Of a stretch of DNA of 64,000 nucleotides, positions 5,513-60,779 are shown one piece after another. How positions within the stretch are numbered: position 1 is the stretch's first letter; the number at the start of each line of letters is the position of its first letter. The notes below the pieces were generated by a model that made no database searches, was not told the DNA's origin, and saw nothing but the letters and a program-made list of their open reading frames with translations. This DNA comes from Terriglobia bacterium (GTDB lineage: Bacteria; Acidobacteriota; Terriglobia; JAJPHL01), in contig JAJPHL010000068.1 in the NCBI GenBank assembly GCA_021325275.1, positions 248,001 to 312,000 on the forward strand. Direction: 5' to 3'. The translations under genes were made by a program, and so were the position numbers.

Positions 5513-6379
5513 TTGGTCGAACCAATTTCCCATTTTTTCCACTCGCATCGCCTGCGCCTGCAATTCTGGGATTGGGGCAGTGAAGGGAAGCCGGCGCTGC
5601 TACTGGTGCATGGCGCGCTCGATCACGCCCGCAACTGGGATTGGGTGGCGCGCGATCTTTCCCGCGACTATCACGTGTACGCGCTCGACTTGCGTGGTCA
5701 CGGCAACAGTGCGTGGGCGCCTGGCGCCACGTACACCGTTGTCGAGCACGTCCTCGACCTCTCGGCGCTCGCCGACATCATCCAAACGTTCCCGATTTAC
5801 ATCATTGGCCATTCGCTCGGTGGCGTGATTTCGCTGTTGTACTCGGGCGTCTATCCCGATCGCGTGAAAAAAGTCGTGGCCATCGAGGGTTTGGGATTGC
5901 CTCACGGTCATCGCGTGCACCGGCCGCTGACCGAAAAACTCCGCCGATGGATCGAGGAAATTCGGAACAGCGAACAGCGCGAGCCGAAGGCGTATCCGAA
6001 TTTGCAAGCGGCGGTGAATCGCATGAAGGAAGCGAATCCGCACTTGAGCGACGAGCAAGCGCGTCATCTCACGCTACACGGCACGAACTGGAACGCTGAC
6101 GGCTCGCTGATTTGGAAATTTGATAACTACGCGCGTCTTTTTCCGCCGTACGGGCACTCGCTCACGGATATGGCCGAGATTCACTCGCATATTACGTGTC
6201 CCGCGCTGCTGTTTTGGGGTACGGAAAGTTTTGCGGGCGATCCAACGAAGGACGGGCGCGCGTCAGGAATCCGGAACAAGCGCTTTGTAAGAGTAGAAAA
6301 AGCGGGCCACTGGCTGCATCACGACCAGTTGGAGCTTTTCCTGCGAGAGACGCGCGCGTTTTTCTCGGAAGGCGACTAG
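5513..6379 (+). CDS. alpha/beta hydrolase
   Basis: A hydrolase of the alpha/beta fold, about 288 residues. It has the oxyanion-hole region LLVHGALDHARNW, the nucleophile elbow GHSLGG with Ser, and a C-terminal GHWLHHDQ histidine. Similar proteins include esterases and epoxide or haloalkane hydrolases; the substrate cannot be told. I chose TTG 5513 because CCGGAGG (5497-5503) lies 9 bases upstream; the frame is open to an alternative TTG at 5495 that would place that ribosome site inside the coding region. No signal peptide is seen. Confidence 0.88.
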   Translation: MVEPISHFFHSHRLRLQFWDWGSEGKPALLLVHGALDHARNWDWVARDLSRDYHVYALDLRGHGNSAWAPGATYTVVEHVLDLSALADIIQTFPIYIIGHSLGGVISLLYSGVYPDRVKKVVAIEGLGLPHGHRVHRPLTEKLRRWIEEIRNSEQREPKAYPNLQAAVNRMKEANPHLSDEQARHLTLHGTNWNADGSLIWKFDNYARLFPPYGHSLTDMAEIHSHITCPALLFWGTESFAGDPTKDGRASGIRNKRFVRVEKAGHWLHHDQLELFLRETRAFFSEGD

Positions 6380-6380
6380 T

Positions 6381-6508
6381 TTTGGAGTGCGGCGACTTGT
6401 CGCCGCTTTGGTAGCCCGCGGCTTGACGCCGCGCTTCACGCAGTTACGAACGGGCGCGCGAGTCAAGCCTCGCGCGTCGAAAGCGGCGACAAGTCGCCGC
6501 ACTCCAAA
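6381..6508. repeat. palindromic element E1 filling a convergent gap
   Basis: A 128-bp element with perfect 29-nt terminal inverted arms at 6381-6409 and 6480-6508. Each arm contains its own small palindrome GCGGCGACTTGTCGCCGC. Inside lies a second nested pair, GGCTTGAC near 6420 and GTCAAGCC near 6461. It starts 2 nt after the hydrolase stop and ends on the base before the aldehyde dehydrogenase stop. A second copy with identical arms lies at 27171-27305. Confidence 0.9.
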
Positions 6509-7927
6509 TTAGCGCGCGATTGATTTCACCTGGAAAAACTCTTCTAGTCCCCACGCACCGAGTTCGCGGCCGACACCCGATTGCTTGTATCCGCCGAACG
6601 GCGCCAGCGGATTGAAGCGTCCGCCGTTGATGTCCACTTGACCTGTACGAATGCGTCGGGCCACACGCAACGCGCGAGCGGGATCTCCCGACCAAACGCC
6701 GCCCGCGAGTCCATAGATGGAGTCGTTGGCGATGCGCACGGCGTCGTCCTCGGTGTCGTACGGCAGGATCGAAAGTACCGGGCCGAAAATCTCTTCCTGT
6801 GCGATGGTCATGTCGGATTGCACGCCGGAAAAGAGCGTCGGCTCGACGAAGAATCCTTTTCCAAAAGCCGCGGGACGCCTGCCGCCCGCGATCAGCTTCG
6901 CGCCTTCTTGTTTTCCCTTGGCGATGTAGCCTTCCACGCGTTGGCGCTGTGTGCCGCTGATCAAGGGGCCGAGTTTCGTGGCCGGGTCGAGCGGATCGCC
7001 CATCGTGAGTTGCGACAAAGTTTGCGCGGCGAGCTTTTCCGCTTCTTCCAGGCGATTACGCGGGACCACCATGCGCGTCCATGCCGAACAAGTCTGTCCG
7101 GAGTTGAGCATGGCGTTTTTCGCGCCGGCGGGAACGGCTTTTTCAAACGGCGCGTCGTCGAGGATCACGAATGCCGATTTGCCGCCCAGTTCCAGTGTGA
7201 CTTTTTTGATTGTCTCGGCCGCGAGCGCCGACACGCGCTTGCCCGCGCGAACCGATCCCGTGAAACTCACCATGTCGACGCCCGGATGTCCGGCGATCGC
7301 CTCGCCCACAGTCGGCCCCGTCCCGCTCACGATGTTTACTACGCCCGCGGGCAATCCAATTGCGATACATGCTTCGGCCAAGATAAAAGCGTTGAGCGGC
7401 GCGATCTCCGACGGCTTGAGAACAACCGTGCATCCGGCGGCCAGCGCCGGCGCGACCTTGTTCATGATCTGATGAAGCGGATAATTCCACGGCGTGATCG
7501 CGCCGATCACGCCGAACGGCTCGCGCACCACGAGGGAATTGCCGACTTCTTGCTCCGTGACGAACGTGGCGATCATTTGCGCGTAATTGTTCGTCGTCAT
7601 CACCGGCAATCCCGCTTGGATCATGCCGGAAATCGAAATTGGCGTGCCGACTTCCCGGCTGATGGTTCGCGCGATAGCCTCGCCGCGTTCCTTCAACGCG
7701 CCCGCTAGCTTCGTGAGCCACGCGGCGCGTTCTTCCTTCGTGGTTTCGCCCCAAGGTCCTGTGAATGCACGCCGGGCCGCCGCTACGGCTTGGTCGACAT
7801 CGGCCGCCGTGCCTTCGGGAACGCTGCCGATTGTCTCTTCGGTGGAAGCGGATTGCACGTCGATGCTGGAATCAGATGCCGGTTTGCGCCATTCACCGTC
7901 GATATAGAGGTCGCCGTAGATTTGCAT
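6509..7927 (-). CDS. aldehyde dehydrogenase (NAD(P)-dependent)
   Basis: A 472-residue member of the aldehyde dehydrogenase superfamily, which oxidises aldehydes to acids with NAD(P)+ in the cytosol. Visible motifs are PWNYPLHQ, the Rossmann segment [12 protein letters not shown], the general-base Glu in LELGGK, the catalytic Cys in NSGQTCSA and EEIFGPVLS. Length is normal. I chose ATG 7927 ([13 protein letters not shown]) because the open frame further upstream is non-homologous in character. TATTCT lies 8 bases before this ATG without a ribosome site, so the mRNA may be nearly leaderless. The substrate is unknown. Confidence 0.95.
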
Positions 7928-18389: not shown

Positions 18390-21131
<2,742 letters not shown>

Positions 21132-23978: not shown

Positions 23979-24071
23979 TTTTTTACCGCAGAGACGCAGA
24001 GACGCAGAGAAAATCAGGGACACGCGATCAACAGGTTTTCTCTGCGTCTCTGCGTCTCTGCGGTGAAAAAA
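23979..24071. repeat. palindromic element A1 (8-bp period arms)
   Basis: The left arm (23979-24013) and right arm (24036-24071) are near-perfect inverted copies around a 22-nt loop. Each arm consists of three GCAGAGAC units at 8-bp period flanked by T-rich and A-rich ends. It lies 10 nt after the stop of the DapA-like gene and upstream of the PQQ dehydrogenase. Confidence 0.92.
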
Positions 24072-26543: not shown

Positions 26544-27170
26544 ATGGCGGCACCGCTCAACACGGTCTTCATTGTAAGTTTGCTCGTGAGCGTTTCGCTC
26601 GTGGTGCTGTACTGGCTCCGCGGATGGCGCTCCGGTCGTGCCGAGGCGCGCTCGGTCGTCGAGTGGGTGCGGAGCGGCATGGACGGTTTGGGCCGCATCG
26701 GTACGGCGCTGCCGGAAGGCGCGGTGCTTCGCGTTCCTCTCCGCTTCGAAGACGCCCGATTGCGCAACGCCAGCGCCACCGTTCATTTCAGCGAACAAGG
26801 CGAAGCCGTCGACGTGGTTTTGCGCTGCGATCTGGACCGCCCACCGCGTCGCACGGCGTTGATCAGCTCCACGCGCTGGGGATTGTGCAGCCGGCCGATC
26901 CGTCCCGACGAAAAAATGGGTCAATGGAAGATGCGGCGCTTGGGATTGTACGCGCTGACTTCAGAACGCCGACTCGTGGAAGATTACCGCGAACTCTTAC
27001 ACTCTCTTCTCGACGCCACCGCCGTGGGCATGGCGCATCTCGAACTCGACCCCGCAAGTCCGCACCTGACGTTAACGCTGTCGCTTGAACCCGGCGGATT
27101 GCCGACGCCCGCGCCGTTGTTCATGCTGATGCGGCGCTTGGCTGATACGGTCCCGCAACATTCCCGCTAA
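26544..27170 (+). CDS. membrane-anchored protein of unknown function
   Basis: A 208-residue protein with one N-terminal transmembrane helix (TVFIVSLLVSVSLVVLYWL) and a soluble remainder. That part is rich in beta strands at first (LRVPLRFEDARLRNASATVHF) and helical later (RLVEDYRELLHSLLDA). I recognise no family. It follows the hydrolase by 3 bp, so it is probably cotranscribed and functionally linked to it. Element E2 begins on the base after its stop codon. Confidence 0.7.
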   Translation: MAAPLNTVFIVSLLVSVSLVVLYWLRGWRSGRAEARSVVEWVRSGMDGLGRIGTALPEGAVLRVPLRFEDARLRNASATVHFSEQGEAVDVVLRCDLDRPPRRTALISSTRWGLCSRPIRPDEKMGQWKMRRLGLYALTSERRLVEDYRELLHSLLDATAVGMAHLELDPASPHLTLTLSLEPGGLPTPAPLFMLMRRLADTVPQHSR

Positions 27171-27305
27171 TTTGGAGTGCGGCGACTTGTCGCCGCTTTG
27201 GAAGTCCGCGACTTGTCGCGGACACGCTGGCGTTCGCGCGATCCTCGGTACCGTGCGAGACAAGTCTCGAACTGTGAAAGCGGCGACAAGTCGCCGCACT
27301 CCAAA
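27171..27305. repeat. palindromic element E2 filling a convergent gap
   Basis: Its 29-nt arms at 27171-27199 and 27277-27305 are identical to those of the element at 6381-6508. The inner modules differ: CCGCGACTTGTCGCGG near 27206 and CGAGACAAGTCTCG near 27256. It starts on the base after one stop codon and ends one base before the convergent stop. Confidence 0.9.
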
Positions 27306-27306
27306 A

Positions 27307-27777
27307 TCACAAAACGAAACGCGCGCCTTGACTCTCGAGAATCTGCCGCGTCTCCGCAGTGGCCGATCGCACCAGCACCACGACCGCGCCGTGTGTCACT
27401 TCTTTGCGCACCGAATGCGGCAGATCCAATGTGCCGCCGAATAATCCTGCTTCGCGCAGCAACTCGAAAAGCACGCCCGCGATCGACGCCAGTGCCGCCA
27501 GACCGAACACGATGATTCCCGCGGGCGACAACGTGATCATCGCCATGTGACCGGTCTTCAATCCCATGGTTGTGAAAACGAAAACCGTCAGCGCTCCGCC
27601 CGACGCGCCGCCGATCAGTCCTCCCCAGATCGCCGCTTTCAGCAAATGATTCTTCACCGCCGGCGAGTGCAGCGGCTCGGACGAAAAAATCTCGCAGTCC
27701 GCGCCAGAGAGCCGCAACATGGCGGCGCGCGCAGCCTCGCCCGTGTTGAAGACGCCGATCAGTTTGGAATCGTTCAT
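27307..27777 (-). CDS. actD: alternative complex III subunit ActD (DUF3341)
   Basis: A 156-residue protein with two central transmembrane helices (AIWGGLIGGASGGALTVFVF and SPAGIIVFGLAALASIAG) between soluble ends. The start LIGVFNTGEAARAAMLRL matches the DUF3341 pattern of ActD. ATG 27777 overlaps the actC stop as ATGA. ActD is a structural membrane subunit of the quinol:cytochrome c/HiPIP oxidoreductase. No actE or actF follows. Confidence 0.85.
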   Translation of the reverse strand: MNDSKLIGVFNTGEAARAAMLRLSGADCEIFSSEPLHSPAVKNHLLKAAIWGGLIGGASGGALTVFVFTTMGLKTGHMAMITLSPAGIIVFGLAALASIAGVLFELLREAGLFGGTLDLPHSVRKEVTHGAVVVLVRSATAETRQILESQGARFVL

Positions 27778-34672: not shown

Positions 34673-34761
34673 TTTCACCGCAGAGACGCAGAGACGCAGA
34701 GAAAACCTGACATCACCACTTCTAGGTTTTCTCTGCGTCTCTGCGTCTCTGCGGTGAAAAA
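34673..34761. repeat. palindromic element A2
   Basis: Arms at 34673-34708 and 34724-34761 are inverted copies of the 8-bp-period CGCAGAGA unit with a 15-nt loop. It starts 10 nt after the symporter stop. Outer bases match A1. Confidence 0.92.
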
Positions 34762-37456: not shown

Positions 37457-37532
37457 GCAAACGCAGATGAACGCCGATAACGCGATGAGGGTTCGATTTT
37501 ATCTGCGTTCATCTGCGTTTATCTGCGGTTCC
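37457..37532. repeat. palindromic element B1 (10-bp period)
   Basis: The left arm (37457-37483, ACGCAGATGA units) and right arm (37501-37532) are inverted repeats with 10-bp internal period. It lies between two convergent stop codons, 15 nt from each. Confidence 0.88.
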
Positions 37533-37546
37533 GTTTTTTCCGGCTC

Positions 37547-39713: not shown

Positions 39714-42302
39714 ATGTCTCCTGGCACGAAGCTTGGGCCGTACGAAATCGTCGCGCCCCTCGGCGCCGGCGGGATGGGCGAAGTGTACCGCGCGCGCGAC
39801 ACGCGTCTCGGCCGCGAGGTGGCGATCAAAGTATTGCCCGCATCGTTCACCGAAAACACCGATCGTCTGCGCCGCTTCGAGCAGGAGGCGCGCACCACAG
39901 GCATGTTGAATCACCCCAATATTCTGGCGGTTTACGACGTGGGCACGCACGAGGGCGCGCCGTATCTGGTGACGGAATTACTGGAAGGGAAAACTCTGCG
40001 CGAGGAACTGCCGATCCCGCGCCGAAAAGCCCTCGACTACGGCAAGCAAATCGCCACGGGACTGGCGGCCGCGCACGCGAAAGGCGTCACGCATCGCGAT
40101 CTAAAGCCGGAGAACCTGTTCGTGTGCCGCGACGGCCGCGTGAAGATTTTGGATTTTGGCTTAGCCAAAGTGGAAGCGCCCGGCGCAGAAATGACGCGCA
40201 CCGCCGGAACCACGCCAGGAGTCGCGCTGGGAACGGTCGGCTACATGTCGCCGGAGCAAGCGCGCGGAGAAGGCGCGGATGCGCGCTCCGATATTTTCGC
40301 GTTCGGCGTGATCCTCTACGAAATGCTCAGCGGCGAGCGCGCGTTTCATCGCAACACTTCGTTTGAAACGCTCACCGCTATCTTGAAGGACGATCCACCG
40401 CCGCTGCCCGACGCCGCGATGGAACGAGTGGTGCGCCGGTGTCTCGAGAAATCGCCGGAGCAGCGTTTTCAATCGGCCAGCGATTTGGGATTCGCGATCG
40501 ATGCGATGTCGGGCATGTCCGGCAGCACCGTTGCGCAACCCGCTGCGACCGATGTGCCGCGACCGCGCCATGCGATGACAGCGGTCGCCGTCGTGGCCGC
40601 CGCGCTTTTCGCCGCTGGAGTCTTCACGGCGGGCCAGTGGTGGCAAGCGCGCCGCGACACCGTCACGACCGGATGGAAGGCAACGCAACTCGGCGGCGCG
40701 GAAATGGCCACGAACCCGCGCATTTCACCGGACGGCCACACGCTGGCGTTTCTGGCGATGGTCGAGGAACTCACGCAAGTGGCGGTGATGAATCCGGAGT
40801 CGGGCAGTTGGACGATTCTCACGCATGATCGCACGCTGGGAGAAGTGGACAATCTCTGCTGGTCGCGCGACGGCTCGAAGATTTATTTCGATCGTGTCTC
40901 GAGCATTCCCAAAGGCATCTACACCGTTTCCGCCCTGGGCGGCGAAGAGCGTCTGATATTGGAAGATGCGGCGTCACCGGAGGCGTTGCCCGACGGCAGC
41001 CTGGTGGTGATGCGCATCAATGCCAAGCGGAATACGCAAGCGTTTCGCTTCTGGCCGGACTCCGGGAAGTTGGAAGCGCTGGGTGATCCGGGCTTGCTCT
41101 GGATCGCTCCTTTTTCCGTGGCACCCGAGGGCGGCGCACGCCTCACCCTGGATGGCTCGAAGGTTTTGTTTGCCGCGATCCCCGCCAACGCTTCGAAATC
41201 CCCGGCTCCGCATCTCTATTCTTTGGACTTCTCGACCAAGCAGATGCGCCAGCTTGCACCCGACTGGGCGATTTCACCAGCTGTTACTAACATCGCGCTG
41301 GCCCCCGATCCGGTCACGCGCCGGATTTACGTAGGCCTGATTGTTCGCCGGTCGTCGACGATATTTTCGCTCGACCCCGATGGAAACGGTCCTCCACGGC
41401 CGGAGATGTCCCTGACCGAAGAGCTCAACGGCTTTGATTTTTCGAGCGACGGCACGTTGTTTACCGGTCAAGCGAACTTTCCGACGGAACTGCTTCGCTT
41501 CAATGCCACGCGCGGTGCGCCGGAACGCCTCACGAGTTGGCGGGGCGCACTATCGAGAGGCGTTGTTCCGTTGCTGGGAGGTTCGGTGATGCTTCCCGCG
41601 TTTGTCGCCGACAAGGAACGAATCTTGGTGTTCCGGCCCGGCAAAGATCCCACAAATTTTCTCAGCACCGATGAGGAGACCGCCGCTCCCGTGGTCCGGC
41701 TCGGCGAGAAAGAAGTGGCTTTCCTGGCAGGCAGTGGATCCGAGCGCAGCCTCGCGGTCGCCACACTGTCGGACGGCCGAATCGTCCGGCGTTTTCCCGC
41801 GACAAAAGGCTTGGTGATCGCCGCTTTGGCGTCGGCCGCGGATGGCGGCGAACTGTATTACGTGTCCAGCGGCGACGTTTGGAGAATCCCGGCGCAGGGA
41901 GGCGATCCGCGCAAACTGACCGTCGGTGACCAGATCGCCGCCGATCCTCGCGGCAAGGACCTGATCGTTCTGCGCAACCAGCAGGACGCCGTTCATCTCA
42001 TTCGCGTGTCGTTGTCCGATGGTTCCGAGCACCCGATTCCGTTCAATAGCGATTTGCGCATCGTGTGGCTCAGTCCGCATAGTGTGGCGGGGGATGGCCG
42101 CATCGCGATCACCGTGTCTTCGCCGGATCGCTGGTTCTACAGCGCCGCGGTCCTCGATCCAGCGACCGGAAACGTGGAGAAACTTCCGGTGGACTATCGC
42201 GGCGACATCGATCATCCCGCGTGGACGCCGGACGGCCATCTCATCGCCTCGGGAGTCCCGGAACGCGAATCGCTATGGCGCTTCCGCCGCGAAAAACCGT
42301 AA
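39714..42302 (+). CDS. Ser/Thr protein kinase with WD40-like propeller
   Basis: An 862-residue receptor-type kinase. The kinase domain has GAGGMGEVY, EVAIKVLP, HRDLKPENLF, DFGLAKV and GTVGYMSPEQ. A transmembrane helix (AVAVVAAALFAAGVFTAG) near 300 leads to about 540 residues of extracytoplasmic propeller repeats (RISPDGHTLAFLA). It resembles the kinase at 18390-21137 in plan but its sequence has diverged. I chose ATG 39714 because the protein then starts MSPGTKLGPYEI like its relatives. Confidence 0.93.
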   Translation: MSPGTKLGPYEIVAPLGAGGMGEVYRARDTRLGREVAIKVLPASFTENTDRLRRFEQEARTTGMLNHPNILAVYDVGTHEGAPYLVTELLEGKTLREELPIPRRKALDYGKQIATGLAAAHAKGVTHRDLKPENLFVCRDGRVKILDFGLAKVEAPGAEMTRTAGTTPGVALGTVGYMSPEQARGEGADARSDIFAFGVILYEMLSGERAFHRNTSFETLTAILKDDPPPLPDAAMERVVRRCLEKSPEQRFQSASDLGFAIDAMSGMSGSTVAQPAATDVPRPRHAMTAVAVVAAALFAAGVFTAGQWWQARRDTVTTGWKATQLGGAEMATNPRISPDGHTLAFLAMVEELTQVAVMNPESGSWTILTHDRTLGEVDNLCWSRDGSKIYFDRVSSIPKGIYTVSALGGEERLILEDAASPEALPDGSLVVMRINAKRNTQAFRFWPDSGKLEALGDPGLLWIAPFSVAPEGGARLTLDGSKVLFAAIPANASKSPAPHLYSLDFSTKQMRQLAPDWAISPAVTNIALAPDPVTRRIYVGLIVRRSSTIFSLDPDGNGPPRPEMSLTEELNGFDFSSDGTLFTGQANFPTELLRFNATRGAPERLTSWRGALSRGVVPLLGGSVMLPAFVADKERILVFRPGKDPTNFLSTDEETAAPVVRLGEKEVAFLAGSGSERSLAVATLSDGRIVRRFPATKGLVIAALASAADGGELYYVSSGDVWRIPAQGGDPRKLTVGDQIAADPRGKDLIVLRNQQDAVHLIRVSLSDGSEHPIPFNSDLRIVWLSPHSVAGDGRIAITVSSPDRWFYSAAVLDPATGNVEKLPVDYRGDIDHPAWTPDGHLIASGVPERESLWRFRREKP

Positions 42303-42305
42303 CAA

Positions 42306-42401
42306 AGACAAAAGAACTGCAACCGCCGATGAACGCAGATGAACGCCGATAAGAAAAACGCGGCCTATCGGTGTTCATCGGCGGTTGCAGTTTCTTGTCT
42401 T
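42306..42401. repeat. palindromic element B2
   Basis: The arms at about 42306-42352 and 42365-42401 are inverted, with 10-bp units (CCGATGAACG). Pairing extends outward through AGACAAAAGAACTGC and GCAGTTTCTTGTCTT. The element fills the gap between the kinase stop and the convergent VOC stop. Confidence 0.88.
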
Positions 42402-44190: not shown

Positions 44191-44276
44191 GCGGTTTTTT
44201 CACCGCAGAGACGCAGAGGCGCAGAGAAAAACCAGGTTCTCTCTGCGCCTCTGCGTCTCTGCGGTGAGAAAACCGC
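44191..44276. repeat. palindromic element A3 with matching base changes
   Basis: Arms at 44191-44233 and 44235-44276 form a near-continuous hairpin. The third unit reads GAGGCGCAGAG instead of GAGACGCAGAG on the left, and the right arm shows the complementary change (CTCTGCGCCTCTG). It starts 4 nt after the NtrC-type gene stop. Confidence 0.92.
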
Positions 44277-49493: not shown

Positions 49494-49580
49494 TAGCCGC
49501 AGATGAACGCAGATAAACGCAGATGAACATCGGAGCGAGCGTCTTATCTGCGTTCATCTGCGTTCATCTGCGGTTGCTTT
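49494..49580. repeat. palindromic element B3
   Basis: Arms at 49494-49530 and 49544-49580 contain CGCAGATGAA units at 10-bp period as inverted repeats. It lies 14 nt after the nupC stop and 14 nt before the punA start. Confidence 0.9.
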
Positions 49581-49594
49581 TCCTCCGGCAACCA

Positions 49595-53382: not shown

Positions 53383-53400
53383 ACAATTGTTTTATCGCAT

Positions 53401-53492
53401 TTCTCCGCGTCTCTGCGTCTCTGCGTTAAAAAAACCTTAACGCTTTGGCTAACCGTCTTTTCAACGCAGAGACGCAGAGACGCAGAGAAAAC
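53401..53492. repeat. palindromic element A4 with inside-out arms
   Basis: Arms 53401-53436 and 53454-53492 are inverted copies of the same 8-bp-period unit as A1-A3. In A1-A3 the CCGCAGAGA end points outward, while here the GAGAAA end points outward. It lies between the divergent rapZ and msrP starts. Confidence 0.88.
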
Positions 53493-59231: not shown

Positions 59232-59250
59232 CGCAGTAACACCAAGACTA

Positions 59251-59340
59251 ACCGCAGATGAACGCAGATAAACGCCGATAAAAGCGGACGCGCATCCGTT
59301 CCTATCGACGTTCCTCCGCGTCCATCTGCGGTTGCTTTTT
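59251..59340. repeat. palindromic element B4
   Basis: The left arm (59251-59279, CGCAGATGAA units at 10-bp period) and right arm (about 59304-59335) are inverted but more diverged than in B1-B3. It fills the gap between two convergent stops at 59231 and 59343. Confidence 0.82.
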
Positions 59341-59342
59341 TC

Positions 59343-60779
59343 TTACTTGAGAATGTCCGCTGCCTGCGAGGCCCACTCGAGGACCATCGTGGGGAAAACG
59401 CCCAGCGCAAAGACACCGATCACGGTGAAGATCAGGACGAGCGTGCCGGACGCGGGTACGGCGGGTGTGGCGGCTGGGGATTCGGCATCTTCCATGTACA
59501 TGGTCACGACCACGCGTAGGTAGTAATACGCGCCGATCGCGCTGTTGATCATGGTGATGATGGCAAGTCCCGGCAATCCCGCGGCCACCGCCGACGTCAC
59601 AATGTAGAATTTGCCGAAGAATCCGCCGGTCAGTGGTACGCCGAGCAGCGAGAGCAGGAAAATCGTGAAGCATGCAGCGAGCACCGGATGGCGCTTGCCG
59701 AGGCCGCGATAATCCGAAATCGCCACGGTCGATTCGTCTTTGCCCGCGAGATGCGCCACCACCAGGAACGCGCCGACGTTAGTCACCGAATAAACCGCCA
59801 GGTAGAAAATCGCCGCGGCCCCGCCCATCGCGGAGCGCGTTGTGAACGCCGCGAGCACGTATCCGGCGTGTGCGATCGACGAATACGCCAGCATGCGCTT
59901 GATGTTGCTCTGCATCAACGCGCCCAAATTGCCCACGAACATCGACAGCACGGCGCATCCCCACAGCAGCCAGAAGTATCCGGCCGCGGGCGTCAATCCC
60001 GTGAGGAAGACGCGCAGGAACATCGCGAAGGCCGCCGCTTTCGGCGCCGCCGACATAAATGCGGTCACCGGCGTCGGCGCGCCTTGATAAACGTCGGGCG
60101 TCCAAACCTGGAATGGCGCGCCGGAAACCTTGAACGCCATTCCTACGAACATCAGGGCCGCGCCCATTGCGACCAGCGGACCGTTGGCCTGCGGAATCGC
60201 CGCGCGGATCGCCGCCAGATTCGTGCTGCCGGTCGCGCCGTACACCAGCGCAATGCCGTAGAGCAGGAATCCCGTGGCGAACGAGCCGAGCAAAAAGTAT
60301 TTCAGGGCCGCTTCGATGCCTCGCGCGTCGTGGCGGCGATATCCCGTCAAGATGTACGTGGAGATCGAGGAGATCTCGAGCCCGATGAAGATCATCACCA
60401 GATCCGTCGAGCAGGCCATCAATCCCTGGCCGACCACGCTGAACAGGATCAGCGCGTAATACTCGCCGGTCTCGATTCCTTCGCGTTTGAGGTAATCGAA
60501 GGAGGAAAGAACCGCCAGCGCGGCGACGATGATGAAGAGTTGACGAAAGAGAATCGCGAACGCGTCGTTGGTCACCAGGCCGTCGAATGCGGAACCCATG
60601 TACTCACCGTGGTGATACGACACGTGCGATCCGAACAGCGCCAGCACCAGAGCGAACAACGCAATGCGTCCAAGCCAGCGCGCGTTTTTCACCGTGGGCG
60701 AAAGCACCATGATCAGCGTGCCCGCGACGGCCAGGACGGTCTCCGGGAAGAGATGCAGCGTTTGGTCGAGATAGCTCAA
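59343..60779 (-). CDS. nuoN: NADH-quinone oxidoreductase subunit N
   Basis: A 478-residue antiporter-like membrane subunit of complex I with about 14 helices. Characteristic parts include SSFDYLKREGIETGEYYALILFS, LEISSISTYILTGYRR, KVSGAPFQVWTPDVYQGAPTPVTAF and YSSIAHAGYVL. The start is TTG 60779, overlapping the nuoM stop as TTGA. It closes the nuo operon. Confidence 0.96.
   Translation of the reverse strand: MSYLDQTLHLFPETVLAVAGTLIMVLSPTVKNARWLGRIALFALVLALFGSHVSYHHGEYMGSAFDGLVTNDAFAILFRQLFIIVAALAVLSSFDYLKREGIETGEYYALILFSVVGQGLMACSTDLVMIFIGLEISSISTYILTGYRRHDARGIEAALKYFLLGSFATGFLLYGIALVYGATGSTNLAAIRAAIPQANGPLVAMGAALMFVGMAFKVSGAPFQVWTPDVYQGAPTPVTAFMSAAPKAAAFAMFLRVFLTGLTPAAGYFWLLWGCAVLSMFVGNLGALMQSNIKRMLAYSSIAHAGYVLAAFTTRSAMGGAAAIFYLAVYSVTNVGAFLVVAHLAGKDESTVAISDYRGLGKRHPVLAACFTIFLLSLLGVPLTGGFFGKFYIVTSAVAAGLPGLAIITMINSAIGAYYYLRVVVTMYMEDAESPAATPAVPASGTLVLIFTVIGVFALGVFPTMVLEWASQAADILK

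Follow-up and report, generated by a model that had tools for sequence, protein, structure and literature searches.

Much is already known of REPs and the transposases associated with them: RAYTs, the REP-associated single-tyrosine HUH transposases, are flanked by inverted REPs, REPs form REPIN doublets, gene ends are preferred, and Acidobacteria carry Y1 transposases with other inverted repeats (PMC2817692, PMC3116915, PMC3733652, PMC6006769). According to Quentin 2018 (PMC6006769), most TIRYTs belong to subclass 2.1 and carry C-terminal HTH domains, and subclass 2.8 is characterised by GT[A/G]G feet, a proline-rich N-terminus and an occurrence mainly in Cyanobacteria. For IS200/IS605 elements, the choice of target is guided by sequence lying 5' of the hairpin (PMC8266576). 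Here we describe a dispersed family of inverted doublets with a RAYT gene inside identical arms, a tag that borders genes of the same RAYT clade in several phyla, and an association with stop codons. In the main texts of the open-access papers searched, no report was found of the tag TTTGGA[G/C]TGCG or of base-exact placement at stops.

The window, the whole 64-kb stretch of DNA that was analysed, carries two of these elements, copy 1 at 6381-6508 (128 bp) and copy 2 at 27171-27305 (135 bp), which, like their inner hairpins, are assigned to neither strand. Direct reading of the sequence confirmed that their 29-nt terminal arms are identical, as had been claimed in an earlier, sequence-only reading. 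The left arm, TTTGGAGTGCGGCGACTTGTCGCCGCTTT, lies on the plus strand at 6381-6409 and 27171-27199, and the right arm, AAAGCGGCGACAAGTCGCCGCACTCCAAA, its exact reverse complement, on the minus strand at 6480-6508 and 27277-27305. Each arm is made up of a tag, TTTGGAGTGCG, overlapping a perfect hairpin (GCGGCGACTTGTCGCCGC, arranged GCGGCGA-CTTG-TCGCCGC) that is followed by TTT, and two more hairpins lie inside the element. The inner hairpin GCGCGAGTCAAGCCTCGCGC, read from the sequence at 6456-6475 of copy 1, recurs across 18 aligned elements; in copy 2, GTCCGCGACTTGTCGCGGAC at 27204-27223 differs on both sides of its stem from the common GCCCGCGGCTTGACGCGGGC, and the element alignment places GTGCGAGACAAGTCTCGAAC at 27253-27272. 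When folded as RNA, either strand of both window elements forms one long hairpin, at -91 to -96 kcal/mol and with z-scores of -9.4 to -11.9. An Rfam scan of the 64-kb window yielded no match.

Copy 1 is located between convergent genes for an alpha/beta hydrolase (5513-6379, plus strand), whose TAG stop ends at 6379, a single nucleotide (T6380) before the element, and for an aldehyde dehydrogenase (ALDH; 6509-7927, minus strand), whose TAA stop starts at 6509 and abuts it (0 nt). The C-terminus of the ALDH is native, with the Pfam match reaching the end of the profile (461/461) two residues short of the stop. Copy 2 separates two convergent genes lacking a Pfam match, one for a 208-aa protein (26544-27170, plus strand), whose TAA stop ends at 27170 and abuts the element (0 nt), and one for a 156-aa protein (27307-27777, minus strand), with its TGA stop at 27307, 1 nt away. 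Codon usage in both gene pairs is of the coding type. The claim that both elements occupy convergent gaps to within one base is thus borne out, stops lying 0 or 1 nt from every end.

The arm recurs genome-wide: with up to 3 mismatches allowed, a 26-nt arm matched at 58 places in the genome (6.86 Mb in 75 draft contigs, at whose ends repeats may be missing), and the reversed control gave 0. These counts, together with the folding z-scores, show that the window elements are not chance structures. From the arm matches, 28 complete two-arm elements were assembled, plus a few degraded ones; most are 128-142 bp in size, six, with a core that forms no hairpin, measure 86-90 bp and one is 106 bp; one arm pair spans 628 bp (C40:69908-70535) and has a transposase gene inside. 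The foot TTTGGAGTGCG is present in every copy and no target-site duplication was found at the element flanks. Pairwise divergence among the 18 aligned long elements amounts to 1.5-2.6% in the arms and 24% in the interiors, where the inner stems vary on both sides, for example from CCCGCG-GCTTGA-CGCGGG to CCCGCGAC-TT-GTCGCGGG. The suggestion that the ends had spread recently gains support from the dispersed family, from the divergence of arms and interiors and from the RAYT gene between the same arms; the interiors are, however, too diverged for a very recent spread of most copies, which implies that the arms are maintained by something.

The sequence-only reading was right that the window holds no transposase gene; the genome does contain one outside it, bounded by the same arms. 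The 628-bp unit on C40 encloses a single ORF of 182 aa, and its arms are identical over 31 nt on the two sides, in inverted orientation. The protein is a RAYT, as indicated by a match to NCBIfam NF047646 REP_Tyr_transpos (86.4 bits, curated cut-off 80), an HUH motif (NHYH) and YVHQNP, and a weak match to PDB 4er8 (TnpArep; E 1e-5). REP_Tyr_transpos is its only NCBIfam match, about 31 residues extend beyond it, and the HUH, W and Y..NP motifs are kept among homologs. Four other Y1 transposase genes of the same genome (L087-L090, on C24, C70, C14 and C1) have unrelated flanking inverted repeats, and none of three tag or repeat motifs scanned for was present at these four loci. The RAYT unit sits where a Ser/Thr kinase gene begins (L043, G000:C40, 69865-70580 in contig coordinates), and a sequence of about 25-30 bp from the 5' end of the kinase gene (GGCTCACGCCTCGGACCTTA) flanks the unit on both sides, slightly diverged.

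A scan of public genomes yielded 52 clear RAYT homologs with 44-69% identity in the best segment; most are from Verrucomicrobiota and Acidobacteriota, with single cases in other phyla. Within 300 bp, TGGA[G/C]TGCG was found on both sides of the gene in 44 of the 52 loci and on one side in 6, and the tag density is 4.77 per kb near the RAYT gene against 0.08 per kb at distances above 1 kb, a difference of about 60-fold. At these homologous loci the stems differ between species and the tag is constant. The presence of a RAYT inside the same arms, and of the tag on both sides of RAYT homologs, points to a REPIN/RAYT system with its own tag. In the RAYT tree, read without rows L093, L095, L098 and L099, whose translation from the wrong strand makes them a false clade, the phyla are interspersed, with 11 changes where the minimum possible is 7; this accords with horizontal movement, subject to the caution that MAG contigs always call for. 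G309 and G313, two genomes reached by way of their own RAYT loci, carry the same arms and the same doublets of 131-133 bp, and in one other genome a similarity search showed that most copies stop at identical TTTGG/CCAAA borders. In G141 and G029 the arm matches are single REP units and not doublets, so that these genomes provide no test of stop fitting. G141 (L220-L239) holds about 50 such units, TGGAGTGCGGCGGCT[T/C]GCCGCCGCTTTT, a one-hairpin version of the family; behind each comes semi-conserved sequence of about 50 nt, often ...CAAACCATAATTCATC.

For the fit to stop codons, genes were called by codon usage with a caller of our own, for which 464 kb of the genome served as training set, and the background statistics cover 464 kb together with the individual element loci. 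In 20 of the 28 elements at least one end comes within 1 nt of a native stop codon, and 18 ends lie at exactly 0, where 1.1% would be expected within 1 nt for random noncoding junctions (p = 2e-33) and 4.7% at YAA/TTR junctions (p = 6e-21). Since the fit exceeds the prediction from a YAA target alone, targeting or selection beyond the motif is needed. The TAA is an in-frame stop at 16/18 TAA-flanked ends, whereas 28/98 of the noncoding TAAs found in convergent gaps are stops (29%; p = 1.6e-7), and TAA accounts for 21/27 of the abutting stops against 115/323 in the background (p = 4e-5). An A occupies position -1 at 42/56 element ends, and the flanks favour YAA|T. When an element is removed on paper, the junction reads TAA|TTA, with two convergent stops abutting, or TAA|TG, where stop and start overlap, and at the TAA|TG junctions the last A of the element restores ATG. 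The Pfam profiles of ALDH, MnmE, YchF, M19 dipeptidase, fucose isomerase and MetRS reach to within a few residues of the stop, in keeping with native C-termini. That the element itself supplies the stop codon was considered and rejected: the flanks are not always TAA, the frames match at both ends and the C-termini are native. Copies had been expected between convergent stops, and of this expectation the gene-end preference proved to be real and base-exact, with convergent gaps enriched, but only 10 of the 28 copies are convergent, 14 being in tandem and 4 in divergent gaps (background 45 convergent, or 14%, 232 tandem and 40 divergent).

In G309 and G313 the elements tend to lie near stops, commonly at 0-20 nt, but they are rarely exact and their flanks are not TAA-rich, so that exact fitting cannot be claimed as general. 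A second palindrome family of the window's own genome (GCAGAGACGCAGAG) has 2/24 stop-facing ends within 1 nt, compared with 25/34 for the REPINs; its borders are uncertain by about 10 nt, and when they are drawn 10 nt further out the figure becomes about 5/24. It follows from these two comparisons that the base-exact fit is a property of the REPIN family in the window's genome.

Other repeats were noted in the window. A second inverted-repeat hairpin family (ACCGCAGAGACGCAGAGACGCAGAGAAAA), at 23985-24064, 34677-34755, 44202-44265 and 53399-53491, has 63 arm matches in its own genome, usually in tandem gaps near a stop codon, and no link to a transposase was found for it there. A third family (AACCGCAGATGAACGCAGATAAACGC and its complement) is present at 37499-37544, 42314-42354, 49494-49589 and 59239-59347, with several copies forming inverted pairs in intergenic gaps. 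Moreover, an inverted repeat of 109 nt, 78% complementary, occurs at 20995-21103 and 39733-39841, 18.6 kb apart and near two large ORFs; it probably represents paralogous gene ends.

We consider it very probable that the elements are REPINs, that is, non-autonomous mobile doublets of inverted REPs spread by the RAYT which is encoded between the same ends in the same genome (C40:69908-70535): the inverted REP doublet, conserved ends, variable spacer, extragenic dispersal and cognate RAYT are all present. Inverted terminal repeats, a short non-coding body and two size classes would suit MITEs with terminal inverted repeats mobilised by a DDE transposase, an explanation that is made extremely improbable by the HUH/Y1 RAYT, rather than a DDE enzyme, enclosed by the arms, by flanks free of target-site duplications and by ends that are themselves hairpins. 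It also seems unlikely that they are bidirectional terminators or mRNA 3'-end elements, selected by the host, incidentally repeated and held in position because termination is useful. Very stable hairpins on both strands, the location at gene 3' ends with enrichment in convergent gaps, and conserved arms around divergent interiors would all suit such a role, but the same arms enclose the RAYT gene, the tag goes with this RAYT clade in different phyla, about one third of the copies are in divergent gaps or in tandem gaps at gene starts, and the G309 and G313 copies, with the same arms, are often away from stops. Moreover, a consensus scan for intrinsic terminators (GC-rich hairpin plus U-tract) gave no match inside either window element, the first hairpin of each being followed by TTT only and not by a U-tract. 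A role of the elements in termination or at RNA 3' ends, as far as can be judged from sequence, is possible.

For REPINs spread by their RAYT, the transposase would recognise the tag and hairpin on single-stranded DNA, excise or copy the doublet, and join it 3' of a short Y-A-A target, often TAA, with T next. By analogy with the IS200/IS605 model, such joining 3' of YAA with T next is the most likely course, and the flanks suggest insertion at TAA|T. One search for an empty site, made for G309, gave none. Insertion at TAA|T would leave both neighbouring reading frames intact, at convergent stops (TAA|TTA) as at stop-start overlaps (TAA|TG), and purging would then remove insertions that hit genes and many promoters. 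Effects at mRNA 3' ends, if any, such as a stabiliser, weak terminator or translation brake, would be by-products. To explain why true stops are used in excess of other YAA|T sites, one has to assume targeting or else a strong purging of insertions elsewhere. It may be that no special targeting exists and that the exact fit is wholly due to purifying selection acting on insertions into common YAA|T sites; we rate this explanation as only a little short of an even chance. It accords with the YAA|T preference of the flanks, with the rarity of TAA in the coding DNA of a genome of 60% GC and with noncoding TAAs being in part stops. Set against this, stops make up only 23-29% of the noncoding TAAs that lie outside promoter-near zones, well below the proportion among TAA-flanked ends, long convergent gaps, presumably neutral, are under-used, and few stop-facing ends of the second palindrome family lie within 1 nt of a stop with either placement of its borders. 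More tentatively, and with confidence clearly below even, we propose that this RAYT lineage inserts REPINs preferentially at stops, with a single-stranded target, TAA|T, that is provided by convergent stop-stop and TAATG stop-start junctions; since the target would be met at these junctions, insertion would be neutral for both flanking proteins.

If this is true, stop-preferring insertion would mean that a REPIN system chooses its targets in a gene-sparing way, and TAA|T would be the first defined insertion target for REPINs. Within one genome it is possible to read the element ends and the tag, to identify the cognate RAYT and to propose a target junction, and several phyla share this RAYT clade and its tag; this yields a defined substrate and a simple prediction, namely cleavage next to TTTGG and joining 3' of YAA. 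Furthermore, genes with a strong hairpin 0-1 nt past the stop form a natural set that should be useful for studying the effects of REPs on translation and mRNA 3' ends.

The system shares with the REPINs and RAYTs of Pseudomonas fluorescens (Bertels & Rainey 2011, PMC3116915) the inverted REP doublets, conserved ends, variable spacer, dispersal outside genes and a REP-flanked RAYT. It differs from them in its longer doublets (about 130 bp with four hairpins, or about 88 bp), in the tag TTTGGAGTGCG and in abutting stops to the base. The RAYT gene between two oppositely oriented REPs and its HUH-Y1 protein recall the REPtrons (Nunvar 2010, PMC2817692; Corneloup 2021, PMC8266576). Those have canonical REPs, marked by GT[A/G]G, that are familiar from gamma-proteobacteria, whereas the present clade carries the TGGA[G/C]TGCG tag and occurs mainly in Verrucomicrobiota and Acidobacteriota; in place of the 5' GTAG or GTGG that precedes the palindrome of a canonical REP, the foot is TTTGGAGTGCG here and TGGA[G/C]TGCG in the homologs.

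There is also a likeness to the TIRYTs and TIRtrons (Di Nocera 2013, PMC3733652), Y1 genes with inverted repeats that are not of the GTAG type, some of them in Acidobacteria, with some self-complementary terminal repeats and moderate repeat families. GGGGWSAS, the motif of TIRYTs, does not occur in the arms; the two systems were compared by motif and description. TnpA-Y1 subclass 2.8 (Quentin 2018, PMC6006769) has in common an NHYH HUH motif, W-[Y/H], YxHxNP and REP flanks; compared by description, NHYH and WY match the present protein and YVHQNP is close to YIHYNP, but the GT[AG]G foot is absent here. Finally, the REPs of E. coli (Liang 2015, as cited in PMC12306157) are likewise palindromes located shortly downstream of stop codons; as cited there, they lie within 1-20 nt of the stop, whereas the distance here is mostly 0-1 nt and TAA is enriched.
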